Source: Nitrospirota bacterium
Lineage (GTDB): Bacteria; Nitrospirota; Nitrospiria; Nitrospirales; Nitrospiraceae
NCBI GenBank assembly: GCA_013388555.1
Contig: JACAFD010000099.1
Location: forward strand, 1 to 37,869
Direction: 5' to 3'
Length of the DNA stretch: 37,869 nt
A program made the position numbers and the translations under genes. Below the pieces are notes generated by a model. It saw nothing but the letters and a program-made list of their open reading frames with translations, had not been told where the DNA came from and searched no databases. Shown piece by piece: positions 2,570 to 28,993 of the stretch (within the stretch, counting starts at the first letter, position 1; the number at the start of each line of letters is the position of its first letter).

Positions 2570-3363
2570 GATCACGTATTTCCACTTTCGTGCGTTTTGT
2601 GGTGCTGGTGTCGGTTGTTCTGGCGGTCGTGCCGGCCGTTAACGCAGCCGACCGCGACAAACTTCTGAGTGAACCGGGCGTCTATGGCACATTTGCCGCG
2701 TTCCGACTCGATGCTGATTGGGTTAAACAGGGTCAGACGACGCGTATCACGCAATTGCTCACGTTGAAGGGAGTGGTCGAGCAGCATCGAGAAAAAGTGG
2801 CGATTGATGTCTATCTTCTTCGTGGACTCTCCGATCGCGCCGACCTGCTGTTTCGCATTCATGCGACCGAGCTGCGCGATGCCCAAGAATTTCTCCTGGA
2901 TCTCCAGGGCAGTCTTTTCGGCAAGCACCTGACCGATAGCACGATCTTTTCCGGTCTGACGAAGAAGGCCAGCTATGTACCGGGCATGCCGGACAGTCTC
3001 AAAGCCGAACTCAAGGCTCCCAGTGAGCCAGGCCCTCAGCCCTACGTCATCGTGATCCCGATCCGGAAGAGTGCAGACTGGTGGGGGCTGGATCAGGACA
3101 AGCGCGCGGCCATGATGCAGGAACATACGGAAGTCACGGTGCCCTATCTCAAGACGGTCAAACGGAAGCTCTATCATTCCAGCGGGCTCGACGATCTGGA
3201 TTTCATCACCTATTTTGAAACGTCCAAGCTGGAAGACTTCCACAGCCTGGTTCTGGCTTTGGAGAAGGTGAAAGAGTTCCCGTATAATCGGCGCTTTGGT
3301 CATCCGACCCTGCTGGGAACCGTCAGATCGTTGGATGAGATCATCGAGGTATTGGCTCAGTAA
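2566..3363 (+). CDS. cld: Periplasmic chlorite dismutase (heme b)
   Basis: Chlorite dismutase converts chlorite to chloride and dioxygen. A signal peptide (residues 1-27, hydrophobic stretch ending AVNA) indicates export to the periplasm. The mature start ADRDKLL, the LLRGLSD segment, PYVIVIPI, the WW pair at 172-173, MQEHT with the proximal heme ligand H187, and KTVKRKLYHSSGLDD with the distal arginine R200 match the Nitrospira-type enzyme. A Lys at 168 and a Glu at 218 sit where the heme-pocket residues are expected. At 265 residues it has the long, pentamer-forming subunit length. It lies between purB and purC and overlaps purB by four bases. No purine-related reason for this position is known. 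The family assignment is firm; the physiological substrate in this organism is not shown. Confidence 0.95.
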   Translation: MRSRISTFVRFVVLVSVVLAVVPAVNAADRDKLLSEPGVYGTFAAFRLDADWVKQGQTTRITQLLTLKGVVEQHREKVAIDVYLLRGLSDRADLLFRIHATELRDAQEFLLDLQGSLFGKHLTDSTIFSGLTKKASYVPGMPDSLKAELKAPSEPGPQPYVIVIPIRKSADWWGLDQDKRAAMMQEHTEVTVPYLKTVKRKLYHSSGLDDLDFITYFETSKLEDFHSLVLALEKVKEFPYNRRFGHPTLLGTVRSLDEIIEVLAQ

Positions 3364-3388
3364 CTGTGAGTACGGCTGGAGATTAGGT

Positions 3389-4093
3389 ATGGCAACAGGC
3401 GCGTTACTCTACGAAGGTAAGGCCAAAAAGGTTTTTGCGACCGACAGGCCCGATCAGGTCGTCCAGTATTTCAAGGATGATGCGACGGCCTTCAACGCGC
3501 AGAAGCGCGGGACTATCGCCGAGAAAGGCGTCATCAATAATAAAGTGTCCGAGCGGCTTTTTCGGTTGCTGGAACAGGCCGGTGTGCCGACGCATTTTGT
3601 CGAGCGCCTCAGTGACCGCGAACTGCTCACGAAGAAAGTCACGATCGTGCCGGTCGAAGTGGTGGTCCGCAACGTCGTAGCAGGCAGCTTGGCGAAGCGG
3701 TTGGGTCTGAAAGAGGGTGAACCCATCGAGCCGGCGATCGTGGAGTGGTACTACAAGAACGATGCGCTGGGCGATCCGCTCATCGCTGATGAGCATATTC
3801 GGTTGCTCAAGCTGGCGACGCCGGAGCAACTGGTAGAAATAAAGCGGCTCGCGTTGCACGTAAATAGAGTCCTCCAACCGTTCTTTCGCGAACGGCAGAT
3901 GATCCTCGTCGATTTCAAATTGGAGTTCGGGTTGCATAACGGCAAGTTGATCCTGGCCGATGAGATTTCGCCGGACACCTGCCGCTTTTGGGATCAGACG
4001 ACGAAGGAGTCGATGGATAAGGATCGGTTTCGGAAGGATTTGGGGAAGATTGAAGAGGCGTATCGGGAGGTTCTGAAAAGAGTGTGCGGATGA
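3389..4093 (+). CDS. purC: SAICAR synthetase
   Basis: Phosphoribosylaminoimidazole-succinocarboxamide synthase joins CAIR and aspartate using ATP, the step before PurB. The ATG at 3389 was chosen because it gives the family N-terminus ALLYEGKAKKVF and has GGAG upstream; the frame is open further upstream, but that part overlaps cld and looks unrelated. Visible motifs are YFKDDATAFN, VVRNVVAGSLAKRLG, VDFKLEFG and ADEISPDTCRFWD. The 234-residue length is typical. It starts 25 bases after cld. A structured, mostly non-coding stretch of about 200 bases follows, which may separate it from the next genes. Confidence 0.96.
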   Translation: MATGALLYEGKAKKVFATDRPDQVVQYFKDDATAFNAQKRGTIAEKGVINNKVSERLFRLLEQAGVPTHFVERLSDRELLTKKVTIVPVEVVVRNVVAGSLAKRLGLKEGEPIEPAIVEWYYKNDALGDPLIADEHIRLLKLATPEQLVEIKRLALHVNRVLQPFFRERQMILVDFKLEFGLHNGKLILADEISPDTCRFWDQTTKESMDKDRFRKDLGKIEEAYREVLKRVCG

Positions 4094-23359: not shown

Positions 23360-24574
23360 ATGAAAAAAGCCCTTCTGCTCGTCATCCTGCTCGGCCTTGA
23401 TGTCAACACGACGATGGCTGGGGTGCCGGCTGATAAGGGTGCCAAGAAACCTTCCACTGGTAACGATTTTCTGAATCAACAGAAGTACCAGGAGGCGCGC
23501 ACGGCCTTTGAGGTTGATCTGAAACAAGACCCTGCGAATGCCATGGCACACTTCTATCTTGGCGATGCCTGTCGAGGTCTGAAAGCTTGGGCCTGTGCGG
23601 AAGAGCATTACCAGACCTCGTTGGAGCTTGACGCGAAATCCTCTGTAGCCGGTTTGGCCAAACAACGGGGGCAAAAAGCCAAAGTCTGGCGCTTGCTGGA
23701 CGAGGTGAAGCAGGCAGCCGACGATCCACACATTTCACCCAAGGAGGTGGCTCATGTGGAAGAGGTGTTGGACCTTGCAAACAAGCTGGGCCTCGACGAT
23801 GAGCAGCAGGTCGCCTACTATCAGTTGCAACAGAGAATTCCGCAGGGCCACAAACGGAGCGGCCCGAAGAAGGCGTCAGGCCAGGTGTATGAACAGTCGA
23901 TGGTGCTGGTGCCGGCGGGGGAGTTTACGATGGGAAGTTCGGCGGGAGATCCGGACGAACAACCGGTGCGCAAGGTCTATCTGGACGCCTTTTTGATAGA
24001 CAAGTATCAGATGACGGTGGGGAAATATGGGACGTTCTTGGACGCCACGGCCTATGAAGCACCGGCTGACTGGGATGTCATGAGCAAAGCTATGCACCAA
24101 AAGCGTCCAGTCGTCAATGTGGATTGGGCGGATGCGGATGCCTACTGCAGGTGGGCCGGCAAACGCCTACCGACAGAGGCGGAGTGGGAGAAAGCGGCGC
24201 GGGGGACGGATGGCCGGCTCTATCCCTGGGGGAATCAACTCCCGACGGATTTTCACGCGAATATGAAGAAGGAAGTATGGAACAACCACGTAGTCTTAAC
24301 GCCGGTAGGGATGTATGAAGGTGGCAAGAGTCCCTATGGTGTTTACGACATGGCCGGCAATGTTTGGGAGTGGGTCAGCGACTGGTATAGCCAGGACTAT
24401 TATAAGACCGGTCCGTTGAGGAACCCGACAGGACCGCCAACGGGCAGCTACAAAGTGGTCCGTGGCGGCTCCTGGGGCAGCAGTCCGAAGGACCTGCGTA
24501 GTACGGATCGGGACAGCCGTTTGCCGTCGTTCGGAGGTCTCGGCACAGGGTTCCGCTGCGCGAAGAATCCGTAA
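23360..24574 (+). CDS. Exported TPR / SUMF1 (FGE-like) domain protein
   Basis: A 404-residue protein with a signal peptide (1-20), TPR-like helices (about 35-120) and a C-terminal SUMF1/formylglycine-generating-enzyme-type domain (about 170-402). Family motifs are clear: MVLVPAGEFTMGS, PVVNVDWADADAYCRWAGKR, LPTEAEWEKAARG, YDMAGNVWEWVSDWY, VVRGGSW and GFRCAKNP. The two copper-binding catalytic cysteines of true FGE, expected just after GGS, are absent (GGSWGSSPKDLRS), so it does not make formylglycine. Related domains serve in ligand binding or other oxidations. A GGGAGT ribosome-binding site precedes the ATG. Confidence 0.85.
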   Translation: MKKALLLVILLGLDVNTTMAGVPADKGAKKPSTGNDFLNQQKYQEARTAFEVDLKQDPANAMAHFYLGDACRGLKAWACAEEHYQTSLELDAKSSVAGLAKQRGQKAKVWRLLDEVKQAADDPHISPKEVAHVEEVLDLANKLGLDDEQQVAYYQLQQRIPQGHKRSGPKKASGQVYEQSMVLVPAGEFTMGSSAGDPDEQPVRKVYLDAFLIDKYQMTVGKYGTFLDATAYEAPADWDVMSKAMHQKRPVVNVDWADADAYCRWAGKRLPTEAEWEKAARGTDGRLYPWGNQLPTDFHANMKKEVWNNHVVLTPVGMYEGGKSPYGVYDMAGNVWEWVSDWYSQDYYKTGPLRNPTGPPTGSYKVVRGGSWGSSPKDLRSTDRDSRLPSFGGLGTGFRCAKNP

Positions 24575-24603: not shown

Positions 24604-26094
24604 TTACTTCTGCGAGTACCACCGATATCCTTTTTGTTCGGTGAAGTTGGTTTTCTGAGCCCCGCCGGGTTTTTCCAATAACAGGACTTTGAAGTCGATG
24701 AGACCGAACCAGGCGGGATCCGCTACGTCGTGGTAATGGCAGCCATGGAGTTTTTGGAGCATGTCGCCCAGTGCATGGTGTAGTTCCTTTTCGCTGTAAG
24801 CTCGCACGATGAAGGGCTTGTTCATGGCCTGGCAGAACCGCTGAATGGTATAGGCTGCGCCGGTACAGAGCACCTTGCTGTCTGGTTTGATGGCGAGGAA
24901 TTGGGGCAGCGAGAGATAGCGTTCTTGAAAGCCCAGCCAGCGGGCCGCTAGGCGCAGGTGGCCGTACTGAACTTCGTACTCTGTGTGGCCCGGTAGTTTG
25001 ACCGGCGCCGGCCAGCCTTCTTCAATTCCGAATTCAGTGAGAAACGCCCTGCCGCCCGGCTTCAATACCCGCCACAGTTCCGCCACGAATCGAACAGGGC
25101 CGAGGTTGAAGATCACATCTTCTGGCAGGCCCGTGCCCAGCGGCAGCCGCACCCGTCTGATCCAATCCAGCGCTTCCTGATGCTGCGGGCTGTTGCCGAT
25201 TCCATCGAGAAGTTCCTTTCTGGTCAATCTCACCGGGGTCATGTCGGCCATGTTCTCGTTGTCGATGACAAGATCGACCGAGTGGTTTTTGAAGGGCAGC
25301 CATTCGCCATTGGCCCGGGTACCGATGCCGCCCCAGCCTCCGGCCTTGGCACGAGTGACTTGCAACGCGAGGAAAGGTTCAGTGATGTCGAGGGAGATGT
25401 ACCGAATGGTCTGTTTTTCAAACGGCAAGAGTTCCCTGCCTGCCTCACGGGCCAGGTATCCGAGGCCGCCGCCGACTTCTACGATGACATGGGGTTTGGG
25501 AGTGAACCAACCTAGCTTTCGCAATTGCCGCATGAGTAGCCGGCCGTAGGTCAAGCCGTTGAGCGCGTCGCTCGGCTCTCGAAAGAGGTGGGAGACGGTG
25601 GTTTCGATCAGATCGAAGTGGCCGTCGTCTTTACCACTGTCGGTCAGTTCATGATGATGAAAGTCTTCCAGATGCTCTTCTCCCTCGAACCCTTCCTGCC
25701 CGGACCAGCCCTCCCGGATTTGTTGGAGGAGCAGATCCCACTTGGCTCTGTGGCGGTGGCCGCCAGGGGGTTCTGTGCCGTAGTAACATAAAGAGTAGGT
25801 AGGCAGAGCCCAGTGTTCCAAATGCCACTGTCCAGGCTGTCCGTCCGGTCCGCAGACCAGCCGTCCGTATTTTTCCACCAGCGTGCCTACTGTTGTATGG
25901 CCGTTCATCGCCTGTAACATTTCCAGGCCGGTGCGATTCAGTCGGATGATCGGCAGGTTGTCATCGAGGGGTACAAACCACCATTCGTCCGAGGTGTGCT
26001 GGTAAGCGACGAGATCGGGGATGTGCCAGGCCAGACGATGAAGCGTTTCTCCGGTAAGGCTGAGCGGTTCGTGAGTGGCGACAGCTGGTTTCAT
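24604..26094 (-). CDS. SAM methyltransferase with an N-terminal PqqD-like domain
   Basis: A 496-residue protein. Residues 38-77 (WWFVPLDDNLPIIRLNRTGL, EMLQAMNGHTTVGTLVEKYG) follow the pattern of PqqD-like RiPP recognition elements, in which a strand-rich start leads into an L-N-x-T-G helix. A linker with C81 and C103 follows. The methyltransferase core has motif I VEVGGGLGYLA at 205-215, an acidic strand-2 end (YISLDIT), DLVIDNENMADM and LWRVLKPGGRAFLTEFG. No radical-SAM gene or precursor peptide is seen next to it. The PqqD-like assignment is from pattern only. It converges on the SUMF1-domain gene with 29 bases between the stops. Confidence 0.75.
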   Translation of the reverse strand: MKPAVATHEPLSLTGETLHRLAWHIPDLVAYQHTSDEWWFVPLDDNLPIIRLNRTGLEMLQAMNGHTTVGTLVEKYGRLVCGPDGQPGQWHLEHWALPTYSLCYYGTEPPGGHRHRAKWDLLLQQIREGWSGQEGFEGEEHLEDFHHHELTDSGKDDGHFDLIETTVSHLFREPSDALNGLTYGRLLMRQLRKLGWFTPKPHVIVEVGGGLGYLAREAGRELLPFEKQTIRYISLDITEPFLALQVTRAKAGGWGGIGTRANGEWLPFKNHSVDLVIDNENMADMTPVRLTRKELLDGIGNSPQHQEALDWIRRVRLPLGTGLPEDVIFNLGPVRFVAELWRVLKPGGRAFLTEFGIEEGWPAPVKLPGHTEYEVQYGHLRLAARWLGFQERYLSLPQFLAIKPDSKVLCTGAAYTIQRFCQAMNKPFIVRAYSEKELHHALGDMLQKLHGCHYHDVADPAWFGLIDFKVLLLEKPGGAQKTNFTEQKGYRWYSQK

Positions 26095-26160
26095 GATCGA
26101 TGTGAGCTGGTGGAGTGCTGAAGCCTACACGGGTGGTCAGATTCTCGCAAGGCCTCAAGG

Positions 26161-26270
26161 GACGTGAGGCGTGATTCTGGTCTGTCTCGTTGTCGCCCGG
26201 TCTCTCAGGTCTGTCTGGTCACTACGAGATGGACGGGATAGACAAGAGTGACCAGAGAGACGAGTGACAG
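26161..26270. repeat. Inverted short-unit repeat cluster upstream of the PqqD-like methyltransferase
   Basis: TCTGGTCACT at 26214-26223 and AGTGACCAGA at 26247-26256 are perfect 10-bp inverted copies. Additional GTCTGTCTCG/GGTCTCTCAGG-type units on the left face GACAAG, GAGAGACGAG and GTGACAG units on the right. It lies about 65-175 bases upstream of the methyltransferase start codon. Confidence 0.7.
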
Positions 26271-26273
26271 GCT

Positions 26274-26479
26274 CTAGCAGGTTGCGGAAAAAATCAGTTT
26301 ATACTTAAGACACCGCTGAAATCTCACAGAATAACGCTGATGTCACGATAAGTCAGGATGCTCAAAAAGACCGTCCAGCAAGGCCGCAGCGAGCGAAGAG
26401 GCGAGGCGTACGCTTCGGTACGTTGAGCCTCTGAGCGATGCGAGAACGAAGCTGGCGGACTTTTTGAGCATCCTGCTAG
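26274..26479. mobile_element. Miniature inverted-repeat element, copy 3, with an extra end
   Basis: The inner element, 26354-26475, is bounded by CAGGATGCTCAAAAAG and CTTTTTGAGCATCCTG-type ends and is nearly the same length as copy 1 (122 and 123 bp). A further end-like sequence, CTAGCAGGTTGCGGAAAAA at 26274-26292, and CCTGCTAG at 26472-26479 suggest a larger composite or a nested insertion. The interior has the shared CGATGCGAGAACGAAGCTGG segment and a GGCGTACGCTTCGGTACG hairpin. Confidence 0.8.
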
Positions 26480-26517
26480 AACAAGAGTGAAGGCGCGTCC
26501 ATCCACTCCAGCCCTTC

Positions 26518-26763
26518 TTACATCGATGGAGGTTTCTTGAGATCGAGAATGTCCTGCTGGAACCGGTCGCGCGCCGCCAAGATGACCTTCCGCCGTTTCC
26601 ATCGGCCCCACCATCGAAGACGATCCCGAAACGTGACGACCGGTGACGGAGCGCTTCCACTTGGAGCATGCTGAAAATCGTAGCCCTGGCGCTTGGCGCG
26701 ATTTTCGAAGAATCTGCGGTAGAGATGATCGTACAAACCTTTGCCTGAATCGCCTACGTCCAC
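26518..26763 (-). CDS. Small basic protein downstream of the DUF255 gene
   Basis: An 81-residue protein rich in Arg, Trp and Lys (DRLRWWGRWKRRKVILAARD). It begins at GTG with a GGAGG ribosome-binding site at proper spacing, 9 bases after the DUF255 stop, so an operon is likely. No signal, membrane segment or family is recognised. The gene could be spurious, but the start signals favour it. Confidence 0.5.
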   Translation of the reverse strand: MDVGDSGKGLYDHLYRRFFENRAKRQGYDFQHAPSGSAPSPVVTFRDRLRWWGRWKRRKVILAARDRFQQDILDLKKPPSM

Positions 26764-26772
26764 ACAACCTCC

Positions 26773-28851
26773 CTACAATAATAACTCCAACTGCCGGCTC
26801 TCCGTCACCGGAGATGAGCAGGTCTGACGTCGGCAGAGATATGCCGTTGGCTGCCCATTCACCATCGCCTTCCCCGCAGCGAGCGGCAAGTCGGTTCCCG
26901 CAGCACGACGAGAAGGTTCGGCCACCAGCACCGCACGATTCGGCAGATAGCGCTGATGAACAGTTGAGAGCAACGATTCAGTCCGTGCATCGCCACGACT
27001 ACCGAGAACTACAATCTCCCATGGCATCGTCAGGTACCAATCCAGCGAACAGAGCATGGCCGATGAGCCATAGGCATTATGTTCCATCACGCTTCGGAAT
27101 ACCCGAAATAGATGCTCTGCCCGATCATAATACTTCTGCTCTCGTGTGAAGGAGAAGAGCCTCAACAAGACCAAGGCGACAACGGCATTGCCCGATGGAA
27201 TCGCGCTATCGGTCCCGGACTTCATGCGATGGAGGAGAGCTTCATGGTCGCGGCTGGTATAAAAGCACCCGCCAGCTTCCTCATCCCAATATCGCTCCAA
27301 CAGATGGCCCGTTACCTCACGAGCCTGCTCCAAATACCACCGATGCGACGTGGCCTCAAACGCATCCAACAATGCAGCAGCAAGACAGGCTGCATCGTCC
27401 AGGTATCCGTTCAAACGCCCCTTCCCTGCCGTGACCGCACGATAGACCCTCCCATTCTCAACCGCGTAGTCCAATAGGAATGTGAGGCCCCGTTCCGCAG
27501 CAGTCAGATACGCGGGAACCCCGAATGCCTGGTAGGCGTCAAGATAGGCAGAGACCGTCATCGCATTCCAACTTGTGAGGATGTTATCATCCCGCTGCGG
27601 CTTCATCCTTCGCTCTCGTGCTGCGAGCAATTTTACCTTGGCAGACCGTAACGCTTGCAGCGCGTCGGACGCGAGCTGAGTCCCACCGAGCTGATTCAAC
27701 ACATTCTTGCCTTCAAAATTTCCGCTCTCCGTCACTCCATAGTACCTGCAGAACTCCTCAGCGACGTCGGCCCCCAGCACCGAAATAATTTCTCCCTGCT
27801 CCCAAACGAAGTATGCTCCTTCATGCCCCTCGCTGTCGGCATCCTGCGCAGCATAGAATGCGCCGTCCGGATGCGTGAGTTCACGGCGAACGTACTCCAA
27901 GGTTTCTTCCACGACCTCACGAAACCGGTCCTCCTTGGTGAGACGCCATCCATCGAGATAGATCCGCACCAGCTGCGCATTGTCGTAGAGCATCTTCTCG
28001 AAATGGGGAATCAACCACTGGCCGTCCACCGAGTAACGGTGAAAACCGCCGCCAAGATGGTCGTAGACCCCGCCGGCTGCCATGGTTCTCAGCTGTAACA
28101 ATACTAGGGCTTGATGGGAGACGTCTTTCGTTCTGGCAGTCTGACGCAGCAACAGGCTAAGCGGGGGAACTGTGGGGAATTTCGGCCCCTCACCGAATCC
28201 GCCGTGGACCGGATCGAAAAACTGCCCTAAGCTCCTGGCCGCCTCGTCGAGCAAACGATCCGTCAAGGGGTCAGTCGACGGTTGCGGCGTTCCGACTCGC
28301 AGTAATCCTGCTTTCACCTTCTCCACGTTCTTGAAGACATCGTCTCGATGGTTCCGATAGGCCTCGACGACACCTCGCAGGACCTCAGGAAATCCCGGCA
28401 AATTATGTCGGGGTTCCGGCGGGAAATACGTCCCTCCATAAAAGGGTTCTTGATCAGGGGTCATAAACATCGTGAGGGGCCACCCTCCGCCTCGTCCCAG
28501 AAACACCTGGGCAGCTTTCTGGTAGATATCGTCGAGATCAGGACGTTCTTCTCGATCCACCTTCACATTGATAAAGTCGTGATTCATGAGCGCGGCAATT
28601 TCAATATTTTCAAAACATTCATGCGCCATGACATGGCACCAATGACAAGCCGAGTACCCGATCGACAAGAGAATCGGCTTGTCCTCTGCTTTCGACCGCG
28701 ACAAGGCTTCCTTGCCCCAGGGATACCAATCCACTGGATTCTTCGCATGCTGCCGAAGATAGGGGCTGGCTTCTGTGATAAGCCGGTTCGGAGGTCGGTC
28801 CGCTTGCGTGGGTGGATCTGTCATCGCTTCGTTATTTCCATAATCTGTCAT
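26773..28851 (-). CDS. Thioredoxin-domain protein of the DUF255/YyaL family
   Basis: A protein of 692 residues with an N-terminal thioredoxin-like domain and a large alpha/alpha-barrel resembling N-acylglucosamine epimerases and glycosidases. Visible features are [20 protein letters not shown], the redox motif CHWC in [59 protein letters not shown] and [12 protein letters not shown]. The family is widespread but its reaction is unsettled. The ATG at 28851 was preferred because of AAGG upstream; a GTG five codons earlier and an ATG nine codons later are possible. Probably cytosolic. Confidence 0.87.
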
Positions 28852-28993
28852 ACTACCTTGGCTCACTGCCGCTCTGCAACGAACCAGTCAGACTATGCTA
28901 TAGTTCCGCGCTCCCTGAAGGTTACAAAACATATCTGTGAGCATGCCAGAATTGTATCGGGCTGTACGTCTAGTACGAGAGGAACACACCTCG

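Follow-up and report, generated by a model that had tools for sequence, protein, structure and literature searches.

A two-domain core gene of the Nitrospirales

The gene described here lies on the minus strand of contig JACAFD010000099.1 (Nitrospirota bacterium, assembly GCA_013388555.1), the whole 37,869 nucleotides of which are referred to below as the window. It opens with an ATG codon, runs from 26094 to 24604 and encodes a protein of 496 amino acids, in which a domain probably related to PqqD and to the recognition elements (RREs) of ribosomally synthesized and post-translationally modified peptide (RiPP) pathways precedes an S-adenosylmethionine (SAM) methyltransferase with a predicted fold nearest to MidA (Table 1). 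The genome carrying the window (3.5 Mb, 99.5% complete) is nearest to Nitrospira. Within the window the methyltransferase gene stands by itself: its upstream neighbour encodes a thioredoxin-domain DUF255 protein (26773-28866), and downstream, across a gap of 29 bp, a convergent gene encodes an FGE-sulfatase/TPR protein (23360-24574). The list of open reading frames (ORFs) and scans with domain libraries revealed neither a radical SAM gene nor a precursor candidate beside it. The locus had no match among plasmid records, and we know of no published account of the gene from literature pairing 'Nitrospira' with 'PqqD'.

Table 1 Features of the methyltransferase gene, with positions in the window
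Feature	Position	Strand	Basis
Whole gene, 496 aa, RRE/PqqD-like domain and MidA-like methyltransferase	24604..26094	minus	ORF list, orthologues, alignment
Probable PqqD/RRE-like winged-helix domain, residues 15-97	25804..26052	minus	DSSP, Pfam PqqD, structural lists, HHalign with controls
Linker, residues 98-162, pLDDT < 50 at 111-163, holds C103	25609..25803	minus	alignment, model
Class I SAM methyltransferase, predicted nearest to MidA/COG1565, residues 163-478	24661..25608	minus	VIA-align 2, Pfam, sequence bridge
SAM-binding motif I VEVGGGLGY, residues 205-213	25456..25482	minus	invariant E206, G208, G210-Y213
DNENMADMTPV, residues 278-288, aligned with MidA motif SNELLDaFPV	25231..25263	minus	alignments
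Last 38 codons and stop, seed of downstream repeats in relatives	24604..24720	minus	repeat search of related loci

Of 101 related genomes, 87 have an orthologue, as do 69 of the 73 good-quality genomes among them, and the ORF is therefore a real gene. The orthologues occur in three of the four sampled Nitrospirales families, family f4 having none, and share ~86-93% identity within the genus and 53-62% with other families of the order. Across an alignment of 37 orthologues the mean column identity is 73%, with more than 100 invariant columns, and nearly all members of the three families have the gene, normally in one copy. The other orders of the phylum yielded zero orthologues, and a profile search there gave only distant methyltransferase matches. 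A contig scan whose peptide patterns favour close relatives, and which is not a survey beyond Nitrospirota, matched only records labelled Nitrospira/Nitrospirae, Nitrospiraceae or Nitrospirota, plus two labelled 'uncultured Nitrosospira'. The methyltransferase gene is a slow-evolving core gene of three Nitrospirales families and does not have the patchy distribution of a biosynthetic cluster.

The N-terminal domain resembles PqqD and RREs

A preliminary description of this DNA, made from the sequence alone, had placed a possible PqqD-like domain ahead of a SAM methyltransferase in one chain, and weak but coherent evidence from sequence, topology and fold favours this arrangement. In the full-length structure model (mean predicted local distance difference test score, pLDDT, 77), DSSP assigns strands to residues 21-24, 30-34 and 37-40 and helices to residues 54-61, 69-76 and 88-95, which is the RRE order of three strands and three helices. 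Pfam PqqD (PF05402; gathering cut-off 23.4 bits) scored 14.1 bits over residues 49-75 when the whole protein was searched and 16.2 bits with the N-terminal domain alone. When the N-terminal 107 residues were used alone, 19 of the 37 orthologues matched Pfam PqqD, with a best E of 6e-4. Profile-profile comparison by HHalign gave a score of 25.2 against PqqD relatives of the same order, compared with at most 18.6 for 15 unrelated control families, and the domain shares a register with the PqqD relatives, LNRTGLEMLQAMNGHTTVGTLVEKY being aligned with LNPVGALIWDHCAGDRSIQDLLSLV.

Structural comparison pointed, with low scores, to the same group of proteins. Foldseek placed the heterocyclases TruD and LynD, together with lasso-peptide RRE chains, among the top rows for the isolated domain. 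VIA-align 2 matched the domain to MibB (Z 5.0), TigE (4.8), ThcOx (3.9) and CteB (3.4), in stretches that we take to be their RREs, and the first 23 rows also hold lasso B1, TbiB1, PbtF, LynD and TruD. Solved RREs dominate these top rows, at low scores (Z 2.7-5.0). A sequence-profile search with the domain returned no solved RRE, its top matches being mostly designed ankyrin-repeat proteins, which we regard as chance, and against Pfam the domain matched neither a helix-turn-helix (HTH) DNA-binding family nor a dimerisation domain. Taken together, these individually weak items suggest that the domain is likely to adopt a PqqD/RRE-like fold; neither the structure model nor the structural comparison produced a fold unlike that of PqqD.

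Two cysteines had been assigned to the linker that follows. C103 does lie there, and C81 sits in the preceding domain. C81 is invariant among the 37 orthologues and C103 is missing in three of them, so that a conserved metal-binding pair is unlikely and a CxxC-type metal site in the linker was ruled out.

The methyltransferase half is MidA-like by predicted fold

A SAM methyltransferase domain was matched by Pfam in all 37 orthologues, as the preliminary description had proposed, and domain libraries name this half only as Methyltransf_11/25. The generic label is corrected by the fold: the five highest rows of VIA-align 2 are all MidA/COG1565 structures (5zu0, Z 20.1 over 278 residues; 5ztz, 20.0; 4f3n, 19.2; 4g67, 18.7; and 1zkd, 18.4, a Rhodopseudomonas protein without a name that we take to be COG1565). 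These align over 264-278 residues, compared with Z of at most 17.5 over ~170-230 residues for other families, and the modelled methyltransferase half accordingly has the MidA fold. A plain Methyltransf_11 or UbiE enzyme was set aside in favour of a MidA-like one on the same ground. No curated NCBIfam model was approached, the top matches being generic (BioC, UbiE) and far below their own cut-offs; the protein did not turn out to belong to an already characterised small-molecule methyltransferase family.

Sequence comparison also connects the two groups. When the family profile was searched over the phylum, the best match outside the order was a MidA protein (E 1.2e-8). A 362-residue relative on contig 35 of genome G043 has only ~25 residues ahead of the shared ETTVSH motif and therefore lacks the PqqD-like domain; its best match to the Nitrospirales orthologues has an E of 1.5e-18, and it also matches PF02636 MidA proteins, at ~1e-5 (for example, that on contig 116 of G045, which scores 226.6 bits with PF02636). 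PF02636 matched 4 of the 37 orthologues at E <= 0.1, and in a search of the window's own genome it matched two other genes and not the RRE-bearing methyltransferase. The same genome encodes a canonical MidA in a gene of its own (224 bits). Taken on predicted fold, motifs and the intermediate sequence of G043, the methyltransferase half is MidA/COG1565-like, and its SAM-binding motif is intact.

As a separate observation, contig 298 of the genome (L207, 1867-3300) encodes a further and distinct MidA-like methyltransferase, 478 residues long, with a PF02636 score of 33.8 bits; weak PF02636 matches of similar size occur in many relatives.

Neighbouring genes and candidate pathways

A gene for a heme-oxygenase-like diiron oxidase (HDO; PF14518, 79-92 bits) lies directly upstream of the methyltransferase gene in two of the families, f2 and f3, and in the f1 genera G047 and G045. 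It is on the same strand, and its end is at most ~170 bp from the methyltransferase start or overlaps it. The linked HDO has no match in the window's own genome at E <= 0.001, and a diiron oxidase on contig 80 of that genome, considered as the missing partner, is not its orthologue. In the window neither a radical SAM gene nor an HDO gene is found beside the methyltransferase gene; the outlying lineages carry an oxidative partner of the PqqC/CADD-like HDO kind upstream.

Other upstream genes are limited to particular lineages. A TehB-like methyltransferase gene stands ahead of HDO in some f3 genomes, a cysteine-rich protein of 157 residues is encoded upstream in f2, and in Nitrospiraceae the place directly upstream is taken instead by the gene for a secreted cupredoxin-like protein of 124 residues, in 72 of 73 loci (L031-L110). 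The cupredoxin-like protein is missing at 26095-26772 of the window, and the similarity of the window DNA to its nearest relative ends ~180 bp before the start codon. On the downstream side, the exopolyphosphatase gene ppx is the convergent neighbour in 73 loci, with gaps of -1 to 8220 bp.

When flanking ORFs of 60 residues or more were clustered over 87 loci, neither a short precursor-like ORF nor a radical SAM partner proved to be conserved beside the gene. The reported absence of an adjacent precursor or radical SAM gene was borne out in the window. No support was obtained for a tie between the gene and RiPP precursors, radical SAM enzymes or pyrroloquinoline quinone (PQQ). A role as a PQQ accessory was ruled out, as few f3 genomes have a PqqD match and nearly all have the methyltransferase gene. 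Identity with the methyl-plastoquinone methyltransferase MpqE (NF052510) was likewise ruled out: the protein scores 10.9 bits against a cut-off of 335, and the true MpqE of the genome is encoded on contig 129 (403 bits). MpqE is present in families f5-f12 and f18-f20, all of which lack the RRE-bearing methyltransferase, and methyl-plastoquinone synthesis therefore does not need it.

Two further observations concern diiron oxidase and PQQ genes. On contig 80 (L151), the gene for the PF14518 diiron oxidase adjoins an ORF resembling an FGE-sulfatase protein by eye (1725-2474 and 2571-3569); an FGE-type protein is encoded beside the methyltransferase in the window too, and the parallel is possibly due to chance. 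In one f2 genome, which also has HDO, pqqE-, pqqC- and pqqB-like genes follow the methyltransferase gene at a distance of 1-4 kb (L113, 8515-11606).

Repeats at the 3' end and upstream of the gene

Among 91 loci for which enough sequence was available, 28 carry one to three further copies of the 3' end of the gene, downstream and on the same strand. The repeats comprise the last 35-150 bp of the gene, extending up to about 400 bp, and in most loci they end at the stop codon or a few bases off. Many begin close to codon 460 (GCCTGGTTCGGCCT) or ~60 bp ahead of the stop codon. Arrays were seen at L091 (866, 1846 and 2671 after the gene), L105, L090, L178, L070, L176, L085 and 21 further loci, and in several the spacing is 0.6-1 kb. 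Small genes of toxin-antitoxin type are among those between the repeats, which encode Gp49/HigB-like and HTH proteins, a nucleotidyltransferase, a PIN protein, an SNF2 helicase with its neighbour, and a transposase; no integrase was seen among the ORFs scanned, which were not all of those present. The pattern is reminiscent of site-specific insertion that recurs at the gene's 3' end, so that a cassette array would grow there. The locus in the window has no such repeat.

Upstream of the gene, the window holds an intergenic element of ~126 bp (26353-26478) with long terminal inverted repeats, AGGATGCTCAAAAAG...CTTTTTGAGCATCCT, and a folding z-score of -4.9. Other Nitrospira carry similar DNA ahead of the gene, in one or the other orientation, and the element looks like a repeat of the miniature inverted-repeat transposable element type. 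Rfam gave no match in the window.

Proposed function and alternatives

We consider the protein to be best explained as a SAM-dependent polypeptide methyltransferase with a housekeeping role in Nitrospirales, a reading to which structure models, sequence and analogy lend about an even chance. A polypeptide substrate is the best reading because NDUFAF7, the human orthologue of MidA, symmetrically dimethylates Arg85 of the complex I subunit NDUFS2 (PMC3829151). The target is more likely to be a protein than a small antibiotic-type peptide, and the near-universal occurrence of the gene, normally in one copy, favours a conserved cellular protein over a secreted peptide product. RREs hold leader peptides in a groove between the third strand and the third helix. 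In the equivalent putative groove, the RRE-like winged helix would hold part of the substrate protein or peptide and present a neighbouring residue, an arginine if the analogy with MidA applies, to the methyltransferase. Because the HDO gene lies directly upstream in outlying families, the same substrate may be oxidised there besides being methylated; the window's genome manages without HDO. A bolder proposal, which we advance tentatively and regard as somewhat doubtful, is that a dedicated polypeptide-modification system is a core function of nitrite-oxidising Nitrospirales, in which an RRE-type domain directs a MidA-like methyltransferase, ancestrally together with a diiron oxidase, to an indispensable protein or peptide.

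Several observations weigh against a polypeptide methyltransferase. The model of the isolated N-terminal domain (pLDDT 68) lacks the third helix, so that the RRE order of strands and helices holds with that caveat. Neither the whole protein nor the domain reaches the PF05402 cut-off, Foldseek gave no E below 0.5 for the isolated domain, and every score of the domain is weak when taken singly, including the best VIA-align 2 match. Canonical MidA already fills the known role of MidA in the same genome, and the hidden Markov model score to MidA is no better than that to some other single methyltransferases; since this comparison alone could not separate MidA, the assignment rests on fold, motifs and the bridging sequence. 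Furthermore, Wolbachia MidA has been proposed to methylate DNA, in work that its authors describe as preliminary (PMC12455994). The Wolbachia proposal would suit a nucleic-acid methyltransferase or regulator whose winged helix binds DNA or RNA, as would the report that winged-helix transcription factors over-contribute to RRE false positives (PMC12710340). However, the N-terminal domain matches no HTH DNA-binding family, no DNA-methyltransferase family was matched and rRNA methyltransferase models were met only far below their cut-offs, which makes this explanation very improbable.

A small-molecule methyltransferase in which the N-terminal winged helix merely dimerises, as in Rv2258c and many O-methyltransferases, would agree with the presence of Rv2258c (5f8e) in the structural list at Z 16.9, in an alignment of residues 43-480 that reaches into the N-terminal domain, and with the generic BioC and UbiE matches, far below cut-off as they are. 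Yet the domain matches no Pfam dimerisation family, MidA structures rank above the small-molecule enzymes, and the protein is not MpqE, a true copy of which is encoded elsewhere in the genome and which occurs in many families without the gene; we hold this explanation to be unlikely. The third alternative is a true RiPP system, in which a short precursor encoded elsewhere would be bound at its leader by the RRE-like domain and modified by the methyltransferase, with HDO in some lineages. The RRE-like fold, the adjoining HDO in outlying lineages and the recurrent short upstream genes would all fit. Against this, the flanking ORFs of 60 residues or more include none resembling a precursor that recurs beside the gene throughout the order; the cupredoxin-like and cysteine-rich proteins are restricted to certain lineages, have the size of folded proteins and do not occur in the window; and protease, transporter and radical SAM genes are not linked throughout. 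A near-universal, slow-evolving core distribution is moreover unusual among RiPP enzymes. RiPP biosynthesis is therefore possible but not indicated, and we rate such a system as improbable.

RRE domains serve as class-independent flags of RiPP clusters. One that seemingly lies inside a conserved housekeeping gene would show that the peptide-holding fold serves protein modification beyond natural products, and would be a caution to genome miners. Nitrospira and its relatives would gain a core enzyme, as yet without a name, whose substrate can be sought directly, and a new branch would be added to the MidA family, for which few substrates are firmly established.

Comparison with known systems

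With PqqD and RREs (PF05402) the N-terminal domain shares the order of strands and helices, the register LN..G......G..tv..L and its structural neighbours. It differs in lying under the PqqD cut-off, in being fused to a methyltransferase and in having no known leader peptide; the distributions are also unrelated, a PqqD match being present in 48 of the 101 relatives compared with 87 for the methyltransferase gene. Rickettsial PKMT1 and PKMT2 (PF21782) are likewise protein(-lysine) methyltransferases bearing a winged helix, and PF21782 is matched weakly by 5 of the 37 N-terminal domains, with PKMT1 residues 452-541 at Z 2.6 in the structural list; the winged helix is C-terminal there, whereas it is N-terminal in the Nitrospirales protein, and the match is weak. 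The linked HDO resembles the CADD/PqqC/BesC diiron oxidases in its PF14518 scores and reaches 47-60 bits with the CADD model; as this is far under the 200-bit cut-off, it was not assigned to CADD, and it is missing beside the gene in Nitrospira proper. MidA/NDUFAF7 (COG1565, PF02636), an arginine methyltransferase that acts on proteins in complex I assembly, provides the best fold match, and motif I, NE...D..PV and the C-terminal stretch T..V..S.L...LG....Q..L are alignable, with the intermediate sequence linking both; in the Nitrospirales protein an RRE-like domain precedes the methyltransferase. We therefore describe the protein as an RRE-bearing, MidA-like methyltransferase.
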